Assembly: GCA_005882985.1 (NCBI GenBank)
Contig: VBEJ01000040.1
Span: forward strand, 1 to 33,591
Length of the DNA stretch: 33,591 nucleotides
Direction: 5' to 3'
From: Chloroflexota bacterium
GTDB taxonomy: Bacteria; Chloroflexota; Dehalococcoidia; SM23-28-2; RBG-16-64-32
Part shown: piece after piece, positions 3,786 to 13,147 of the stretch
Layout: each line of letters begins with the position of its first letter
Numbering within the stretch: the first letter of the stretch is position 1
Notes under the pieces: model-generated
The model's input: only the letters and a program-made list of their open reading frames with translations
Database searches by the model: none
Told to the model about the DNA's origin: nothing
Made by a program: the position numbers and the translations under genes

Positions 3786-5282
3786 ATGACGGCAATGGTA
3801 GGCACACACCCTTCAGAAGGGCCCATAGCTGAAAACGCGGAAGAATCACTCACGATATCCGAGACGCGCTCTTTCCGGCTGCTCCGCTGGGCCGTTGCAC
3901 TACCCGTCGCTGCCGTTGCAAGCGTCGTTTCCGCCTTTGTGCTCCCCGAGGAAATAACTTTCGCCGTTCTTGCCGGGGAGCTGGCGTTACTCGGTGTCGC
4001 GGGGATCATTGTAGAGATCGCCCTATACAGGACGGAGCGGCGTTTGACACACGAACGCAAGCAGGTGCGCACGCAGTGGCTGAATCAGCGTACAGAGCTG
4101 CTCGACGTTGCCACGCGAGACGAGCTGACGCAGCTGCAGAACCGCCGGTTCTACTATGAGCGACTCGCGGCAGAGCTTACGCGGGCTGAGATGAAGAATG
4201 AAGCGCTGTCGATTCTGATGATCGATGTAGACGACTTGAAAGCCATCAACGACGAGTTCGGCCACCTCGTGGGAGACAAGGTCCTTCGTAGCTTCGCGAG
4301 GATTCTCAACAGCTCCTCACAGGATGGCAACGTCACGGCACGGCTCGGCGGAGATGAATTCGCCGTAATTATGCCCGGTGCAGATCGGCGTGAGGCCGAA
4401 CTGTTTTCACTTCAACTCTGGCAGAAGTTGGCCGACGCGCCGATTTGCGAAACGGAGCACGCAAGCATATACCTCGGCGTTTCGATCGGCAGCAGCGGCT
4501 ATCCCTGGGGCGGAAGCACAGTCGAGGAGATCACCCACTGGGCAGACACGAAGCTCTACGCCAACAAGCTGGAACGCAAGGGTTTCAAGCAGGGGCGTGG
4601 CGACAGGCGAGACGACCGGCTGGCGGCGGCGGTGGTTGAGGTCCTCTCGACCGCGCTCGACGTCCGAGATAAGATGACCCACCGTCATGCGCGCCGCGTA
4701 GCCCGAACCGCAGCTGAGGTAGCACGCTTCATGCAACTTTCCACTGAGAACGTTTCCGAAATCGAGTACGCGGCCGCGCTACACGATATCGGCAAGATCG
4801 GTGTCGCGGACAGCATCCTTCGAAAGTCCAAGTCCCTTGATGCAGATGAGTGGAAAGAAATGCGACGCCATTCGGAACTCGGCTATCAGATTCTCAAAGG
4901 GATTGATTTCTTCCAGAACGCCGCCGAGATCGTCTATGCGCATCACGAGCACTTCGACGGGACCGGCTATCCACGAGGTCTCGTCCGCGAGGAGATACCC
5001 TTGGGCGCGCGGGTTTTCGCCGTCGTCGACGCCTACGATGCTATGACCTCTCGCCGGCCTTATCGCGATGCCATACCGCGCGACGAGGCACTCGCTGAAA
5101 TCGCCAGCCACTCGGGCACCCAGTTCGATCCTAAGGTCGTCCAAGCCTTTCTCGCTGTCATCCGCCGCAGCCCAGACGGCTTCTACGAGGAAAACGAGGA
5201 CGACTCCGTCTTCGGATCGCGTGTCTCCACTGCTGAAGTGCCAGTTCGAACACCGGGCGCGCAGACACTGGTCACGCGTTAG
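3786..5282 (+). CDS. Membrane-associated GGDEF + HD-GYP protein (diguanylate cyclase / c-di-GMP phosphodiesterase)
   Basis: Hydrophobic N-terminal segments; RLGGDEFAVIMPG; HDIGKIG and HHEHFDGTGYPRGL motifs. Confidence 0.95.
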   Translation: MTAMVGTHPSEGPIAENAEESLTISETRSFRLLRWAVALPVAAVASVVSAFVLPEEITFAVLAGELALLGVAGIIVEIALYRTERRLTHERKQVRTQWLNQRTELLDVATRDELTQLQNRRFYYERLAAELTRAEMKNEALSILMIDVDDLKAINDEFGHLVGDKVLRSFARILNSSSQDGNVTARLGGDEFAVIMPGADRREAELFSLQLWQKLADAPICETEHASIYLGVSIGSSGYPWGGSTVEEITHWADTKLYANKLERKGFKQGRGDRRDDRLAAAVVEVLSTALDVRDKMTHRHARRVARTAAEVARFMQLSTENVSEIEYAAALHDIGKIGVADSILRKSKSLDADEWKEMRRHSELGYQILKGIDFFQNAAEIVYAHHEHFDGTGYPRGLVREEIPLGARVFAVVDAYDAMTSRRPYRDAIPRDEALAEIASHSGTQFDPKVVQAFLAVIRRSPDGFYEENEDDSVFGSRVSTAEVPVRTPGAQTLVTR

Positions 5283-5314
5283 CGCATCCCTGCCTCGCCA
5301 TCAGAGCCCGATGC

Positions 5315-5320
5315 TACAAT
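5315..5320 (+). promoter_or_regulatory. -10-like TACAAT upstream of the CoA-transferase gene
   Basis: TACAAT followed at 5322-5337 by GGCGCG-TTCG-CGCGCT, a 6-bp stem with TTCG tetraloop; GGAGG SD before ATG 5358. Confidence 0.3.
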
Positions 5321-5357
5321 TGGCGCGTTCGCGCGCTGTTCGTACGAGGAGGCTGCG

Positions 5358-6677
5358 ATGGACTGGCGCTCTCAGGTCGGCGAAAAATTCACGTCGGCGG
5401 CGGAGGCGGTGAAAGTAGTTAAGTCAGGGCGTCGAGTTGGCATCGCGCCCTTCACCTGCACACCGTTCACGCTCTGTGAAGCCTTGTATGCGCGCCGGGC
5501 CGAGCTCGAGAGTCTAGATATCGACCACGCCGCCGGGCTATTCGCATGGCTGCGACCTGGTGAAGAGAATGGGTTCACCGTCCGCGATAACTACGCGACC
5601 CCGCTGAACCGCGAAATGGTTCACGCCGGCAAGGTCGATTACTTGCCGATAGGCCGCTGGCGCGCGGACGAAGTCGCGCCGGGTTACGACCGCCCTCTCG
5701 ACGTATTCATGGTCCCGCTCTCTCCGCCCGACAAGCAGGGTTACTGTAGCTTCGGCCCGGGCGTCTGGATGTCGAAGCGGCTGGCGCAGGGGGCCGGCAT
5801 TGTGTTGGCGGAGGTGCACGAGAACTTTATCCGGACAGGAGGCGACAACTTCATCCACGTGTCCGAGGTGGACCTCTTCTGTGAGGCGGTGAGGCCAACT
5901 GGCAACCTGCCGATACCGCCACGCACGGACGAGGAGACGCTTGTGGTCGAGGTTGCCTGCACGCTCGTCGCCTCCGAACTCGTGCGGGACCGCGATACGG
6001 TGCAGATGGGAGTGGGAACAGTATCGAGCGCGCTGGGGCTGTACCTGGGCGAGAAGCATGACCTAGGCGTTCAGACTGAGTTGGTGACGGGCGGTATCGC
6101 CAACCTCGTACGCCAGGGAGTTGTGACTGGAAAGTACAAAACGCTCCATCGGGAGAAAGTCGTCGGCAGCGCCCTCGTGGCACTAGACGAAGAAGAGATG
6201 CGACTGATCGACGGCAACCCCGTCTTCGAGCTTTACGACTTCGGATACACGGACGACGTCCGGTTGCTCCTCCAGCAAGACAACCTCGCCGCAGTCAACA
6301 ACGCCCTGCTGGTGGACTTGACGGGACAGATCGCCTCGGAGTCGATCGGCCACAAGGTCTGGACGGGAGTCGGCGGGCAGACGGCCTTCATGATCGCGGC
6401 TCAGTACTCGCGGGGTGGCCGGTCGATCATCGTCCTGCCTTCAAGCCACATGATCAACGGCGAACGGGTGACGCGGATCGTGCCGCTCCTTCCCGAGGGT
6501 ACCCTGGTGACCGTCCCCCGAACTCTTGTGGACTACGTAGTCACGGAACACGGCATCGCGTCGCTTTGCGGCAAGACGGTTCGAGAGCGCATCGGCGAGC
6601 TGATTGGCGTCGCGCACCCCGATTTCAGGGGCGAGCTAAAGAGTGAAGCGAAGCGAATCTACGGGATTTACGTCTAG
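5358..6677 (+). CDS. Acetyl-CoA hydrolase/transferase family protein (4-hydroxybutyrate CoA-transferase-like)
   Basis: 439 aa; QMGVGTVSSALGLYL…DLGVQTELVTGG with candidate catalytic Glu; NNALLVDLTGQIASES; C-terminal VVTEHGIASLCGKTVRERIGELIGVAHPDFR. Confidence 0.9.
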   Translation: MDWRSQVGEKFTSAAEAVKVVKSGRRVGIAPFTCTPFTLCEALYARRAELESLDIDHAAGLFAWLRPGEENGFTVRDNYATPLNREMVHAGKVDYLPIGRWRADEVAPGYDRPLDVFMVPLSPPDKQGYCSFGPGVWMSKRLAQGAGIVLAEVHENFIRTGGDNFIHVSEVDLFCEAVRPTGNLPIPPRTDEETLVVEVACTLVASELVRDRDTVQMGVGTVSSALGLYLGEKHDLGVQTELVTGGIANLVRQGVVTGKYKTLHREKVVGSALVALDEEEMRLIDGNPVFELYDFGYTDDVRLLLQQDNLAAVNNALLVDLTGQIASESIGHKVWTGVGGQTAFMIAAQYSRGGRSIIVLPSSHMINGERVTRIVPLLPEGTLVTVPRTLVDYVVTEHGIASLCGKTVRERIGELIGVAHPDFRGELKSEAKRIYGIYV

Positions 6678-6711
6678 GTCCCGGCTGACGGTTGCCTTTC
6701 TCAATGGGCGC

Positions 6712-7350
6712 TTATTTGGGCAGGCGCTCCTCAAACTCGCGTAGGCGGTCCTCAAGCTGGCGCTGGGCATACGCCATCGTATAATCACCGCGCGTGCGCT
6801 CAAGGATGCCCCTCATCGCGTCCGCCGTCCGCCTGAGGCCCGATGTGACCGCCTCGGGGTAGTCCATCGTCACTAGGACATCGTAGATATCGCCCATCGC
6901 GGCCAGGCAGTCCTCGCAGTGTTGAATATCGCCGGCGCGAAGCGAGTCGAGGAGGTGGCGGCGCAGCTCGCCGACCGTCTCGCCGAGGCCGTTGAGATAA
7001 GAGCCGGCCATCACTGCGAGCGTCGCCGGAGCGGGCAGCGGACGCCCCGCGATAAGCGCGAGCGAGCAGTGAGCCTCCGCAAACTCCTTTTGCGCATCGT
7101 GGACGAAGCCGGCGTGGAAGATGTCTCGATGCTGCGAGAGGGCCGCTTCCGTCTGCTCGAGGTTCGTCTTCGCCTTCGCCAGGAGCCCTCCAGCCGCGTC
7201 GAACTCTCGGCGGTGCACGGCACGGATTGCGTTCGCCGACAAGCGAATCACTTCTCGCGTAAGCGCCAGAGCCTGTTCGCGCGCCTGATGCTTGGCGTCC
7301 AGATGGGCCCGCATCTCGTCCGCGATTGCGTTGAGGCCGTCGGTGTTCAC
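6712..7350 (-). CDS. Translin/TRAX family protein
   Basis: 212 aa all-helical-looking protein with family signature YLNGLGETVGELRRHLLDSLRAGDI…MDYPEAVTSGLRRTADAMRGILERTRGDYTMA; E89-x-x-E92 and E128 resemble the TRAX catalytic Glu triad; 4-nt GTGA overlap with the upstream FmdB-like gene. Confidence 0.85.
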   Translation of the reverse strand: MNTDGLNAIADEMRAHLDAKHQAREQALALTREVIRLSANAIRAVHRREFDAAGGLLAKAKTNLEQTEAALSQHRDIFHAGFVHDAQKEFAEAHCSLALIAGRPLPAPATLAVMAGSYLNGLGETVGELRRHLLDSLRAGDIQHCEDCLAAMGDIYDVLVTMDYPEAVTSGLRRTADAMRGILERTRGDYTMAYAQRQLEDRLREFEERLPK

Positions 7351-7685
7351 AGGTCCTTGACCGGCTCAGGGAAATCACCCTCGCGCGCCGCATCGATCAT
7401 TTGGCGCGCCTCCTGCGGCATGTCGATTCCGAACTCGTCGAACTTGCGCTCCGCCCAGCGCCCTATCTGGCGGGGATCCTTGTAGTCGTCCAGGCGCTTC
7501 GGTTCAGCGCCGTAGTCGCGCAGCATGTCGGCCTCCGACTTATGATACGCGAAGCGCGAAAGCGATCGATCCAGCTTGCCCGAGCCGCAATGCCTACATT
7601 TGGCATCGACCTGGGAATTGACGGTTCGCGCGAAGACGCTGCTCAGCCGCCCGCACTCGCTGCACTTGTATTCGTAAATGGGCAT
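7347..7685 (-). CDS. FmdB-like zinc ribbon protein (copy 1)
   Basis: MPIYEYKCSECG…CRHCGSGKLDRSLSRF; two CxxC knuckles. Confidence 0.9.
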   Translation of the reverse strand: MPIYEYKCSECGRLSSVFARTVNSQVDAKCRHCGSGKLDRSLSRFAYHKSEADMLRDYGAEPKRLDDYKDPRQIGRWAERKFDEFGIDMPQEARQMIDAAREGDFPEPVKDL

Positions 7686-7714
7686 GGCGTCAGAAGATCA
7701 GGTCTAGCAGTTCT

Positions 7715-7945
7715 CTATGTTCTTGCACGGGGAGGCCGGCAGCCGAAAGCGCAGTGACTGCGCCACTGTCCGTATTCGTATCTTGGGGGCACGAAGATAT
7801 GAAAGAACAGCAGAGCGGCAGTTGCGACAAGCGTGAGAAGCACCAAATGCCGCAGGATGATTGGAGCCGCGGACTTGCGCAGCAACCGCCCGGTACTTCT
7901 CGCCGAAGCGCCGGTCGCGACTTCAGTCCACGCCCGCGAATTCAT
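7715..7945 (-). CDS. Putative small single-TM protein
   Basis: 76 aa; one hydrophobic segment (IILRHLVLLTLVATAALLFFHIFV); fills the gap between two co-oriented genes with a short overlap of the upstream one. No family match recognised. Confidence 0.4.
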   Translation of the reverse strand: MNSRAWTEVATGASARSTGRLLRKSAAPIILRHLVLLTLVATAALLFFHIFVPPRYEYGQWRSHCAFGCRPPRART

Positions 7946-8291
7946 CCTCGACTTCTCCTCCGCCGAAGTCGTCCGGCATCTCGCCCGCCTCCATGCGCTC
8001 GAGGTCGGCCTCCATGTCGGCGTCGAGCGGCTCGCCCATCTGACGGCTCATCTTGCGTACCCACCGGGCCATCGAGCGCGGGTCGTTCTCGTCCACATCA
8101 CCCAGACTCGACTCGTCAAAGCCATCGAATGAGTCGCTCTCTGAATGGAGGACGGCCACACGCGACATCAACCGCGAGAGGTCGCCGGATCCGCAGTGCT
8201 CGCAGGCAGCCCCAGCCGGCGCGCCGATGCTGCGCGTGAAGACCGAGGTCCGGCGGCGGCAAGCGTTGCAGCGGAACTCGTAGATCGGCAC
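7923..8291 (-). CDS. FmdB-like zinc ribbon protein (copy 2)
   Basis: MPIYEFRCNACRRRTSVFTRSIG…CEHCGSGDLSRLMSRVAV; paralogous to 7347-7685; acidic C-terminus. Confidence 0.88.
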   Translation of the reverse strand: MPIYEFRCNACRRRTSVFTRSIGAPAGAACEHCGSGDLSRLMSRVAVLHSESDSFDGFDESSLGDVDENDPRSMARWVRKMSRQMGEPLDADMEADLERMEAGEMPDDFGGGEVEDEFAGVD

Positions 8292-8294
8292 TGC

Positions 8295-9071
8295 TTACCA
8301 GTCTTCCGCCAGGCGCCTGCGTTTTATCTCTTCGCGTTCAGAGCACGCATACAAGTAAGGGCAGTGGCCGCAGTGTTGCCCGACGTTCGGCGGGAATTCG
8401 CTTATCGATTGCATCTGGTTCACAGCTTCGAGGAGTTCTGAATGAGAAAGCCTTCTTTGCGCATCGCCGAAGTCTTTGGTCCAGTTATCACCGTCGTCCA
8501 GTCGCCAGAAGGAGGTGGTGGCGACCGGTTTGCCTAGACTTTTCTCGGCCATTATAGCGTAGAGGCGTAGCTGCTTCGCGTCTACCTCGTCCGGGTGCGA
8601 GCCGGTCTTGTAATCAATGAGGTGGAGGCTTCCGTCGACTCTTTCATCGATGCGATCGACGCGCCCGAAGAGTGTTACGCCGGGTTCGACCTCGACCTGA
8701 AAATAGGGCTCTACGAGAAGGGGCCGCGCCGATAAGTCGTGCTGCTTTGCCAACATGCGCAGCTGGTCGATTGACTTTTCGCGCAGCTTATCGACTCCCC
8801 TCATGCGGCGATAGCGGGGCGAAAGCGCCTCCCATCCGTCCTCAAACATACGAATGAGCCGCTGTCCATCCCTCTCCTCGACTGGCACCTTGGAGAAGAA
8901 ATCGCAGAGGACGCGGTGCAGCAGCGACCCGACCGTGTCCTGGGGGCGAAGTCGCGCGGGTATGCGATTGAGGTACTGATAGCGGTAGCGCAAGCGGCAG
9001 GTATAGAACACGCGAATGCGCAGAGGAGAAAGACGAGATACAGTGCTAATTAATTTCGATATCTGTGACAT
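8295..9071 (-). CDS. PD-(D/E)XK nuclease, RecB/Cas4/AddB-type with probable Fe-S cluster
   Basis: VGSLLHRVLCDFF, GRVDRIDERVDGSLHLIDYKTG, QLRLYA; N-terminal Cys (FYTCRLRYRYQYL) plus CGHCPYLYAC (C-x2-C-x5-C). Confidence 0.9.
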   Translation of the reverse strand: MSQISKLISTVSRLSPLRIRVFYTCRLRYRYQYLNRIPARLRPQDTVGSLLHRVLCDFFSKVPVEERDGQRLIRMFEDGWEALSPRYRRMRGVDKLREKSIDQLRMLAKQHDLSARPLLVEPYFQVEVEPGVTLFGRVDRIDERVDGSLHLIDYKTGSHPDEVDAKQLRLYAIMAEKSLGKPVATTSFWRLDDGDNWTKDFGDAQRRLSHSELLEAVNQMQSISEFPPNVGQHCGHCPYLYACSEREEIKRRRLAEDW

Positions 9072-9149
9072 GAATCACGGTTCTAGATATTGGCCAACTC
9101 CCGGCTCTATGGTAATGTTGCCACAAATCTATTAGAGTAGAGGTAGGAC

Positions 9150-10079
9150 TTGCCGATGGGGCCCGGTAGGACCGCAGCCACTGCTGCAACTAGGAATCTC
9201 CGCACTCAACTCCACCCAATCATGACGAGGACGACTTACGCATTGAACCCGGTGCTCAAATGGCGACCCGGCCTCAAGGACGGCGCCGAGGTGTTGCTGC
9301 TTGCAATGGCCTTGCCGCTCTACTACCTCGTCCGCGGCCAGGTGCACCAGCGTGTGGACGAAGCGGTCCAGCGCGGTATCGGTGTCGTCTCTCTCGAGAA
9401 GAGTCTGGGCATATTCTGGGAGGTCCAGTTACAGAGGGCTATACTGGATTACAGCTGGTTTGTCGACTTCCTAAACGGCTTCTATCTCTACGGGCACCTG
9501 CCGCTGATCGGGTTGCTTGCCGCCTGGCTGTATTTCTGGCACCGCCCGCAGTACTTGCTCATGCGGAATGCATTTCTGCTGTCTGGGGCCATCGCCCTCG
9601 TGATCTACGTGAACTTCCCAACCGCTCCACCCCGGCTCCTCCCACCGCATTTTGGAATCGTGGACACGGTATTCAATCAATACGGCCAGGAGCGACCATT
9701 CACCCCAAGCTTCTTCGTGAACCAGTATGCAGCGATGCCAAGCATGCATTTCGGCTGGAATATGCTCGTGGGCATCGCGCTATGGCTTTCCACGAGAAAT
9801 CCCTTCCTTCGCGCACTCGCAGTCCTGATGCCGCTTGGCATGTTTACCGATATCATTCTTACGGCGAACCATTACCTGCTTGACCCGATACTCGCCATTC
9901 CGGTAGTGGCACTCGGCCTGGCAATCACGCTGGGCGGAAGGTGGCTCGTGCTGCGAGCGCTCTCACCGGAGAGCAAGTCTGCCAAGGAGCATGGGTGGGT
10001 GAGCTGGGTCTACTGGTTGGTTGCAATTGACGAAGCAACCGTCCGGCAGCAGCAGCAGAGAGCGCGACAACCTGCCTGA
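9150..10079 (+). CDS. PAP2-superfamily membrane protein (AUR1/inositolphosphotransferase-like)
   Basis: Multi-TM; FPTAPPRLLPP, AAMPSMHFGWN, TANHYLLD motifs. Listed start is TTG at 9150; ATG at 9222 (MTRTTYALNP) is an alternative. Confidence 0.88.
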   Translation: MPMGPGRTAATAATRNLRTQLHPIMTRTTYALNPVLKWRPGLKDGAEVLLLAMALPLYYLVRGQVHQRVDEAVQRGIGVVSLEKSLGIFWEVQLQRAILDYSWFVDFLNGFYLYGHLPLIGLLAAWLYFWHRPQYLLMRNAFLLSGAIALVIYVNFPTAPPRLLPPHFGIVDTVFNQYGQERPFTPSFFVNQYAAMPSMHFGWNMLVGIALWLSTRNPFLRALAVLMPLGMFTDIILTANHYLLDPILAIPVVALGLAITLGGRWLVLRALSPESKSAKEHGWVSWVYWLVAIDEATVRQQQQRARQPA

Positions 10080-11143: not shown

Positions 11144-11515
11144 TCACTCGGCCCAGACGGCGCCTTCGATGTGTTCGAGGGAAAGCAGGCGACCGCTCGG
11201 CTCGAAATCGACGGCGATAACATCGATCCTGCGGCGCTCCGGCAGTCGATCGTCGGTCTGGCCATAAGCTTCGGCCAGACCAACCAGACGCCGCTGCTTC
11301 GCGGGCGTCAACGATTCGCTCGCCGTTCCCAGAGTTTGGCCGCGTCGGCAGCGCACCTCGATAAATGCGAGCAGGTCATCTTGTTCGGCGACGATGTCGA
11401 TCTCCCCCTCTCGAATGCGAAAGTTGCGCTCGCGAATGCGATATCCCTTCGCCAGCAAGTGCTGGACGGCCAAGCGCTCGCCGAGATCCCCGAGTATCCG
11501 GCGCGGCGGGGGCAC
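11144..11515 (-). CDS. YraN family (UPF0102) putative endonuclease
   Basis: LGERLAVQHLLAKGYRIRERNFRIREGEIDIVAEQDDLLAFIEVRCR; GTG start sharing one base with the stop of the upstream gene (TAGTG). Confidence 0.92.
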   Translation of the reverse strand: MPPPRRILGDLGERLAVQHLLAKGYRIRERNFRIREGEIDIVAEQDDLLAFIEVRCRRGQTLGTASESLTPAKQRRLVGLAEAYGQTDDRLPERRRIDVIAVDFEPSGRLLSLEHIEGAVWAE

Positions 11516-12465
11516 TAGTAAGCGCCCTGCTTCTCAAAGATGCGGCGAGGGTTCTCCACGGTCATCGTCCGGATCTGGTCCTCGGTGACGCCTGCCTCGC
11601 GGAGTGCCGGCAGGACATTGTCCGGAATGTAGTTGAAGTGCCAGTTGGGAACGATCCTTTCCCTTAGCGGCGGGTCCACCCAGCCAAAATAGCAGGCTGC
11701 GTCGTGCGATAAGACCATCTTCTCGGCATAGCCCATCCCGCACATCTTCGCGATCGTCGCAATACGCTTCTCATTCTCGAGGAAGATATCGATGCCAAAG
11801 CGGTCCATGCCGATATAGCTCCCGCGGTCGCAGAGCTTCCTCAGGTAATTCGTATCCTCTGTGTCTCCGCTGTGCCCTATGACGACCCGGGAAAGGTCGA
11901 CTCCCTCGCTCTCGAAAACGTCCTGCTGCTTGAGACCGACTTCGCTGGCCGCATGGGTGTGCGTGGAGATGGGGACGCTGGTCGCACGATGGGCTTTGGC
12001 GGACGCCCGCAAAATCCGCTCGACATCCTGCGTGACGCCGGGTTCGTCAGTCGCGCACTTGATGATGCCCGCCTTCACGCCGGTATCCATGATTCCGTCC
12101 TGTATGTCCTTGACGAACAATTCGGCGATGTAATCGATATTCCGGCCGGTGATCGAGCGGAAGTGGTGCGGCACCTCCCAGTAGATCCCCGTAGCCACAA
12201 TGACCTGCATCCCGCTGCGGCGGACGACCTCTTTCACGAGGGGAATGTCGCGCCAGTCGCCGGGTGTCAAGTCCACGAGGGTATTGACGCCGCGCTCCAT
12301 AACGTCTTTCAGCTTGGCCGCTGCTTTATCGATTTCCGCCTCCCGGTCAATGATGGGAAAGTTTTCCTTGACGCCGGGCGACTCGACGATGATGTGTTCG
12401 TGCATCAGGGTGAAGCCGAGGTCGGCAGTATCGATGGGCCCGGATACGGTGTTAACGGCGGGCAT
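11515..12465 (-). CDS. Phosphotriesterase family metallohydrolase (phosphotriesterase-like lactonase type)
   Basis: MHEHIIVE, GVKAGIIKCATD (candidate carbamylated Lys), ISTHTHAAS, VIGHSGDTEDTNYL, LSHDAACYFG. Confidence 0.92.
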   Translation of the reverse strand: MPAVNTVSGPIDTADLGFTLMHEHIIVESPGVKENFPIIDREAEIDKAAAKLKDVMERGVNTLVDLTPGDWRDIPLVKEVVRRSGMQVIVATGIYWEVPHHFRSITGRNIDYIAELFVKDIQDGIMDTGVKAGIIKCATDEPGVTQDVERILRASAKAHRATSVPISTHTHAASEVGLKQQDVFESEGVDLSRVVIGHSGDTEDTNYLRKLCDRGSYIGMDRFGIDIFLENEKRIATIAKMCGMGYAEKMVLSHDAACYFGWVDPPLRERIVPNWHFNYIPDNVLPALREAGVTEDQIRTMTVENPRRIFEKQGAY

Positions 12466-12499: not shown

Positions 12500-13147
12500 T
12501 TATAGCGGAAGACGAGGCATGACCATCTCGCGAACGGGCGAGAACGAACGGCGGTGCAACTGGCACGGCCCAAGACGGTCGAGTGCGGCGAAATGCTCCG
12601 GTGTGGCGTACCCTTTGTTCGTCACGAACCCGTAGCCGGGATACTCACCGTGCTGCTCCGCCATCAGCCGGTCGCGCGCCACTTTGGCGATGATGGATGC
12701 GCAGGCGATCGACATGATCTTTTCATCGCCGTTGATGATCGCTGTTTGGGGGAGGCGGCAAGCGGGCAAGCGAAAGGCGTCGAGCAAGAGGTGGACGGGT
12801 TGCACGACCAGCTCAGAGATCGCGCCAAGCCACGCCTGGCGGGACGCCTCCGCGATTCCGATGCGATCAATCACGCTAACTGGAACGAAGGCAACTCCCG
12901 CCGCGAGCGAGTGCCTCCAGATATACCCCGAAAGCTCTTCGCGCGCGGCTGCGGTCAACTGCTTGCTGTCACGAACGTCGCGCAGCCAGCGAAATTGCTT
13001 GGTGATCCGATCGATCCGAGGGAGAACAACCGCACCCGCTGCCACCGGCCCAGCGAGCGGCCCGCGACCAACTTCGTCGATCCCGGCGAGGAACCCGACA
13101 CCTGCTCTCCAGAGGGCGCGTTCCGCGACGAGATCGGGTGCCCGCAT
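12500..13147 (-). CDS. rnhB: Ribonuclease HII
   Basis: FLAGIDEVGRGPLAGPVAAGAVVL, RDSKQLT, INGDEKIMSIACASIIAKVARD, HRRSFSPV. Confidence 0.96.
   Translation of the reverse strand: MRAPDLVAERALWRAGVGFLAGIDEVGRGPLAGPVAAGAVVLPRIDRITKQFRWLRDVRDSKQLTAAAREELSGYIWRHSLAAGVAFVPVSVIDRIGIAEASRQAWLGAISELVVQPVHLLLDAFRLPACRLPQTAIINGDEKIMSIACASIIAKVARDRLMAEQHGEYPGYGFVTNKGYATPEHFAALDRLGPCQLHRRSFSPVREMVMPRLPL

Follow-up and report, generated by a model that had tools for sequence, protein, structure and literature searches.

The minus-strand gene cluster at positions 6712-9071 of the window (the whole 33,591-nt stretch analysed, from the 2.6-Mb, 83% complete assembly GCA_005882985.1 of a soil Chloroflexota bacterium) probably forms the downstream end of a block of co-regulated housekeeping genes, vertically inherited in the class Dehalococcoidia, and is not a single multi-part machine. 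The window carries the following block members, together with one small ORF that lies among them.

6712-7350, minus strand: TRAX-like protein (translin superfamily, PRK14562/COG2178-type), 212 aa; profile and AF2/Foldseek matches
7347-7685, minus strand: fmdB2, FmdB-family zinc ribbon paralogue 2, 112 aa; Zn_ribbon_8
7715-7945, minus strand: 76-aa ORF for a small predicted membrane protein; genus-specific, outside the conserved cluster
7923-8291, minus strand: fmdB1, FmdB-family zinc ribbon paralogue 1, 122 aa; Zn_ribbon_8
8295-9071, minus strand: stand-alone PD-(D/E)XK nuclease of the RecB/AddB/Cas4 type, predicted 4Fe-4S, 258 aa; PDDEXK_1
11144-11515, minus strand: yraN (UPF0102), upstream block member (PF02021, E 8e-26); adjoins the cluster in relatives
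12500-13147, minus strand: rnhB (RNase HII), upstream block member (PF01351, E 2e-35)

The five ORFs from the TRAX-like gene to the nuclease gene were recovered with the same boundaries as in an earlier reading of the DNA letters (hereafter, the sequence-only reading), as were the 3-nt spacing between the nuclease stop and the GTG start of fmdB1 and the 4-nt overlap (GTGA) between fmdB2 and TRAX. This overlap is not general: in a locus from the same genus (L017), an ORF at 7480-8255 encoding a lipoprotein-like protein of about 250 aa is inserted between fmdB2 and TRAX. The genes for the TRAX-like protein, FmdB1, FmdB2 and the nuclease are real genes under purifying selection, with within-genus dN/dS values of 0.04-0.07 (TRAX), 0.02-0.05 (FmdB2), 0.09-0.16 (FmdB1) and 0.13 (nuclease). 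The small membrane ORF, which overlaps fmdB1 by 23 nt and is followed by fmdB2 29 nt further on, had been counted as part of the proposed system. We rejected it as a cluster member: it has no family match in Pfam or NCBIfam, is present only in two loci of the same genus (L016 and L017) and is weakly constrained (dN/dS 0.28-0.63), with a drifting, unconserved C-terminus.

In the window, rnhB and yraN lie a few kilobases upstream of the cluster on the same strand. A phosphotriesterase-family gene (11515-12465) splits these two genes, which are usually adjacent in relatives, and a divergent PAP2/radical-SAM gene pair lies between yraN and the nuclease gene, so that the block is interrupted at both points in the source genome. 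A promoter scan found no sigma-70-like promoter in 6400-9400, and a terminator scan gave one terminator-like site, on the plus strand, a number below chance expectation.

Across the class, the block follows the order rnhB-yraN-[nuclease]-fmdB1-fmdB2-[thiE]-TRAX-[hppA], seen in about 100 loci. The median gap between rnhB and yraN is 20 nt (47 loci), fmdB2 and TRAX are separated by a ThiD2-ThiE fusion gene in much of the class, and TRAX is followed in relatives by hppA or uvrA; the identities of thiE and hppA were confirmed by Pfam in one representative. In 39 of the 41 class loci that were informative, FmdB is encoded upstream of TRAX at a distance of no more than 3 kb, and none of 35 loci from outside the class has FmdB, yraN, rnhB or the nuclease gene near TRAX; as the loci in both sets are not phylogenetically independent, a Fisher value for this contrast serves as a guide only. 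All 66 genomes of the class sample that have both matches on one contig show FmdB and TRAX adjacent, 24 of them with a gap below 120 nt and 32 with room for about one gene between them, in most cases thiE. Orthologues of the nuclease occur in the block only in families belonging to the same order and in families f40 and f130; most of the class lacks an in-block copy. The co-occurrence across several genera that the sequence-only reading had named as its supporting test is observed, and the adjacency is not confined to a single genome; since the same arrangement is seen in many genera, it cannot be attributed to chance. Among the open-licence literature, we found no paper on the TRAX-FmdB gene neighbourhood. 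Four other loci (L076, L148, L170 and L171), of which at least three belong to genomes outside the class, have no FmdB nearby and carry an hppA-like gene for a proton-pumping pyrophosphatase directly downstream of TRAX; the pairing of TRAX with hppA may therefore predate the adjacency of FmdB and TRAX.

The protein encoded at 8295-9071 is a PD-(D/E)XK nuclease of the Cas4/AddB-like type, as originally proposed. It matches PDDEXK_1 (PF12705) with 121.8 bits (cut-off 22; E 6e-35) and contains the core motifs (H, G-x-x-D, D-x-K, Q-x-x-x-Y), with H52, E121, D139, D153, K155, Q167 and Y171 invariant in 17 nuclease sequences. The same 17 sequences share four invariant cysteines, one N-terminal (C25) and three C-terminal (C234, C237 and C243), matching the arrangement of Fe-S cysteines known from AddB and Cas4, and these are predicted to form a 4Fe-4S cluster site. 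Among solved structures, its nearest relatives are the nuclease domains carried by DNA helicases of the UvrD/Rep type, presumably mycobacterial AdnA, and the protein probably acts on DNA. Narrower assignments were rejected: the score against the Cas4 model TIGR00372 is 32.2 bits (cut-off 65) and no cas gene is found among the annotated window ORFs, and the 258-aa ORF consists of the nuclease only, with no helicase domain, and scores 42.7 bits against the AddB model TIGR02786 (cut-off 486.5). Remoter homologues (E 1e-57 to 1e-70) are encoded apart from the FmdB pair in four genomes (G041:C68:1952-2665, G471:C9, G458:C109 and G464:C28); hence, this nuclease also exists outside the block. In three loci (L018 at 5262-6034, L050 and L125), the nuclease reads in two frames, which reflects either gene decay or assembly error.

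Both FmdB-family assignments of the sequence-only reading hold. FmdB1 and FmdB2 score 47.7 and 44.1 bits, respectively, against Zn_ribbon_8 (PF09723, cut-off 34.4) and 48.8 and 45.4 bits against TIGR02605 (cut-off 31.3), and C8, C11, C30 and C33 are invariant in each (27 sequences in either case). A PDB sequence search with FmdB2 gave no solved relative at E<0.01, and no useful literature on FmdB zinc ribbons was found among open-licence papers. The two proteins are probably small zinc-ribbon adaptors for nucleic acid or protein.

The TRAX-like ORF scores 18 bits against the Pfam Translin family, below the cut-off of 25.9, so that the translin call needed structural confirmation, which was obtained. 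A search of its own genome with this model (PF01997) gave no match, because the model is blind to the TRAX-like family. The ORF matches the NCBIfam models PRK14562.1-5 (E 6e-79), and a profile of the TRAX-like family matches AfTrax with E 7.7e-37. The AF2 model (pLDDT 94.6) consists of helices and contains no strand, and its best PDB matches in Foldseek are all C3PO/translin structures; superposition on AfTrax (chain 3zc1_C) gave a TM-score of 0.90 on the target and an rmsd of 1.8 Å at 32% identity. Profile and fold together establish the translin/TRAX identity that had been read from the translation. NCBIfam PRK14562 models (NF011156-NF011161) carry the product name "haloacid dehalogenase superfamily protein"; this identity, which implies the alpha/beta Rossmann-like HAD fold, was rejected given the all-helical model and the C3PO matches. 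Many Chloroflexota annotations may bear the wrong name via these models.

All 36 TRAX-like sequences compared from the class share four invariant acidic residues, E89, E92, E124 and E128 (E89xxE92, E124xxxE128). In the alignment with AfTrax, these residues fall on its acids, so that the ExxE/DxxxE pattern is present, with Glu replacing Asp at position 124. In the RNA complex 3zc0, the AfTrax chain differs from that in 3zc1 by an Ala at the Asp aligned with E124. Because of the Glu at this position, RNase activity is not certain. Of the TRAX catalytic residues, among which E197 is listed, eukaryotic translin retains just a single one (PMC9246224); with all four acids in place, the present family is TRAX-like and not translin-like. 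The gene is single-copy and of the TRAX type, with the translin partner absent, and a TRAX-type protein is present in 221 of 400 sampled Chloroflexota genomes. Given the match to archaeal C3PO and the four retained acids, its most likely identity is that of a homo-oligomeric single-strand RNase. In two loci (L060 and L061), TRAX reads in two frames, through gene decay or assembly error.

As a housekeeping block, the cluster could work as follows. The nuclease, fmdB1, fmdB2 and TRAX genes would be transcribed together, their co-location reflecting co-regulation of nucleic-acid housekeeping genes. The TRAX-like protein would form a homo-oligomeric barrel resembling archaeal C3PO, inside which short single-stranded RNA could be cleaved by E89, E92, E124 and E128 with a divalent metal, serving RNA turnover or processing, for example, trimming of processed fragments. 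The nuclease may be an Fe-S DNA exonuclease or endonuclease acting at DNA ends, and the FmdB proteins would bind nucleic acid or protein partners as adaptors.

The members of the block are separable. In an even sampling of 118 class genomes, TRAX was found in 92 and the FmdB orthologue in 95, 75 having both, 17 TRAX alone, 20 FmdB alone and 6 neither, some absences being assembly gaps (the contigs of G034, G023 and G004 end inside the block). Presence of the two genes in these 118 genomes is uncorrelated (odds ratio 1.3, Fisher p=0.58). Two genomes of one family (G044 and G435, 96-97% complete) have the order rnhB-yraN-fmdB1-fmdB2-hppA, in which TRAX is absent and there is no room for it. The coupled module put forward in the sequence-only reading is supported in part: the adjacency holds (66 of 66), but the uncorrelated presence, the TRAX-less family and the confinement of the adjacency to the class speak against dedicated coupling; the genes for thiamine-phosphate synthase and the proton-pumping pyrophosphatase, which are not nucleic-acid genes and yet belong to the block, further oppose a dedicated module.

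An unlikely alternative is that the genes are coupled pairwise, with FmdB1 serving the nuclease and FmdB2 being a zinc-ribbon substrate or assembly factor for TRAX. The junction between the nuclease gene and fmdB1 is the tightest and steadiest of the block, with a gap of 4-16 nt in 20 loci from several families and of about 3 nt in the distant genome G474, and FmdB1 and FmdB2 are kept apart as distinct, diverged paralogues throughout the class. The partial distance correlation between FmdB2 and TRAX is 0.62 (jackknife 0.55-0.74), the highest in 16 matched loci, and exceeds that between rnhB and yraN (0.46), a hint of a closer link that is weak, resting as it does on 16 loci. However, most class members without the nuclease still have FmdB1, full-length FmdB2 is retained in the family without TRAX, and TRAX occurs without FmdB2 both in the 17 class genomes noted above and outside the class. 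At the sequence level, there are hints that nuclease-FmdB1 and FmdB2-TRAX could be the best remaining functional pairs.

The dedicated four-part system for nucleic-acid processing, repair or RNA turnover that the earlier proposal envisaged is quite improbable. Four co-oriented, tightly spaced genes, all of nucleic-acid-type families, with an arrangement that several families within the same taxonomic order retain, are compatible with such a system, but most of the class has no nuclease in the block, the presence of TRAX is independent of that of FmdB, thiE splits FmdB from TRAX in many genomes, hppA adjoins TRAX and the membrane ORF is genus-specific. We likewise assign a low probability to a more specific scenario, in which a TRAX-only C3PO with a dedicated FmdB partner would, in this order and together with the Fe-S nuclease and RNase HII, clear RNA from DNA ends or RNA:DNA hybrids. 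Finally, it is very improbable that the TRAX-like protein is an RNase-inactive, translin-like nucleic-acid binder acting with RNase HII on transcription-replication conflicts: rnhB is in the same block, and in fission yeast, loss of Tsn1 is synthetic with loss of RNase H2 independently of RNase activity (PMC9246224), but all four acids at TRAX positions are retained, as opposed to one in eukaryotic translin, TRAX occurs outside the class without an rnhB neighbor, and the partial distance correlation between TRAX and RnhB in the same 16 matched loci is about 0.

The gene-order evidence also sets a limit to interpretation: the neighbors are separable and form a conserved neighborhood rather than a dedicated machine. 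To our knowledge, translin and TRAX have been studied nearly exclusively in eukaryotes and archaea. With its single gene copy, intact acidic site and fixed genomic address in one class, the TRAX-type protein makes a bacterial role testable.

Among known systems, the TRAX-like protein resembles AfTrax, the archaeal C3PO of Archaeoglobus fulgidus (3zc0, 3zc1), in fold, length, the acids at E89, E92 and E128 and the single TRAX-type subunit, and differs in the fourth acid (Glu, E124, instead of Asp), in its bacterial origin and in the adjoining fmdB genes; an archaeal TRAX gene, for its part, is reported to belong to an ancestral operon shared with SepRS (PMC5424206). The Trax of Nanoarchaeum equitans (NeC3PO; 5jr9, 5jrc), which is reported to degrade RNA by itself (PMC9051087), has the same fold (TM-score 0.83 on the target) but, at 17% identity, is far more diverged than AfTrax. 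A 2012 survey by Gupta, Kale and Kumar, cited in PMC5424206, covered translin-superfamily proteins of bacteria; going by that citation, members were already recognized, and the present protein would be one of them. The nuclease has in common with the AddB and AdnA nuclease domains and with Cas4 the RecB-type PD-(D/E)XK motifs and the arrangement of one N-terminal and three C-terminal cysteines, whereas it is a stand-alone protein of 258 aa that lacks a helicase domain, and the annotated window genes include no cas gene. FmdB1 and FmdB2 share with FmdB-family zinc ribbons (PF09723, TIGR02605) the two invariant N-terminal CxxC knuckles and are distinguished by being tandem, diverged paralogues with conserved C-terminal extensions.
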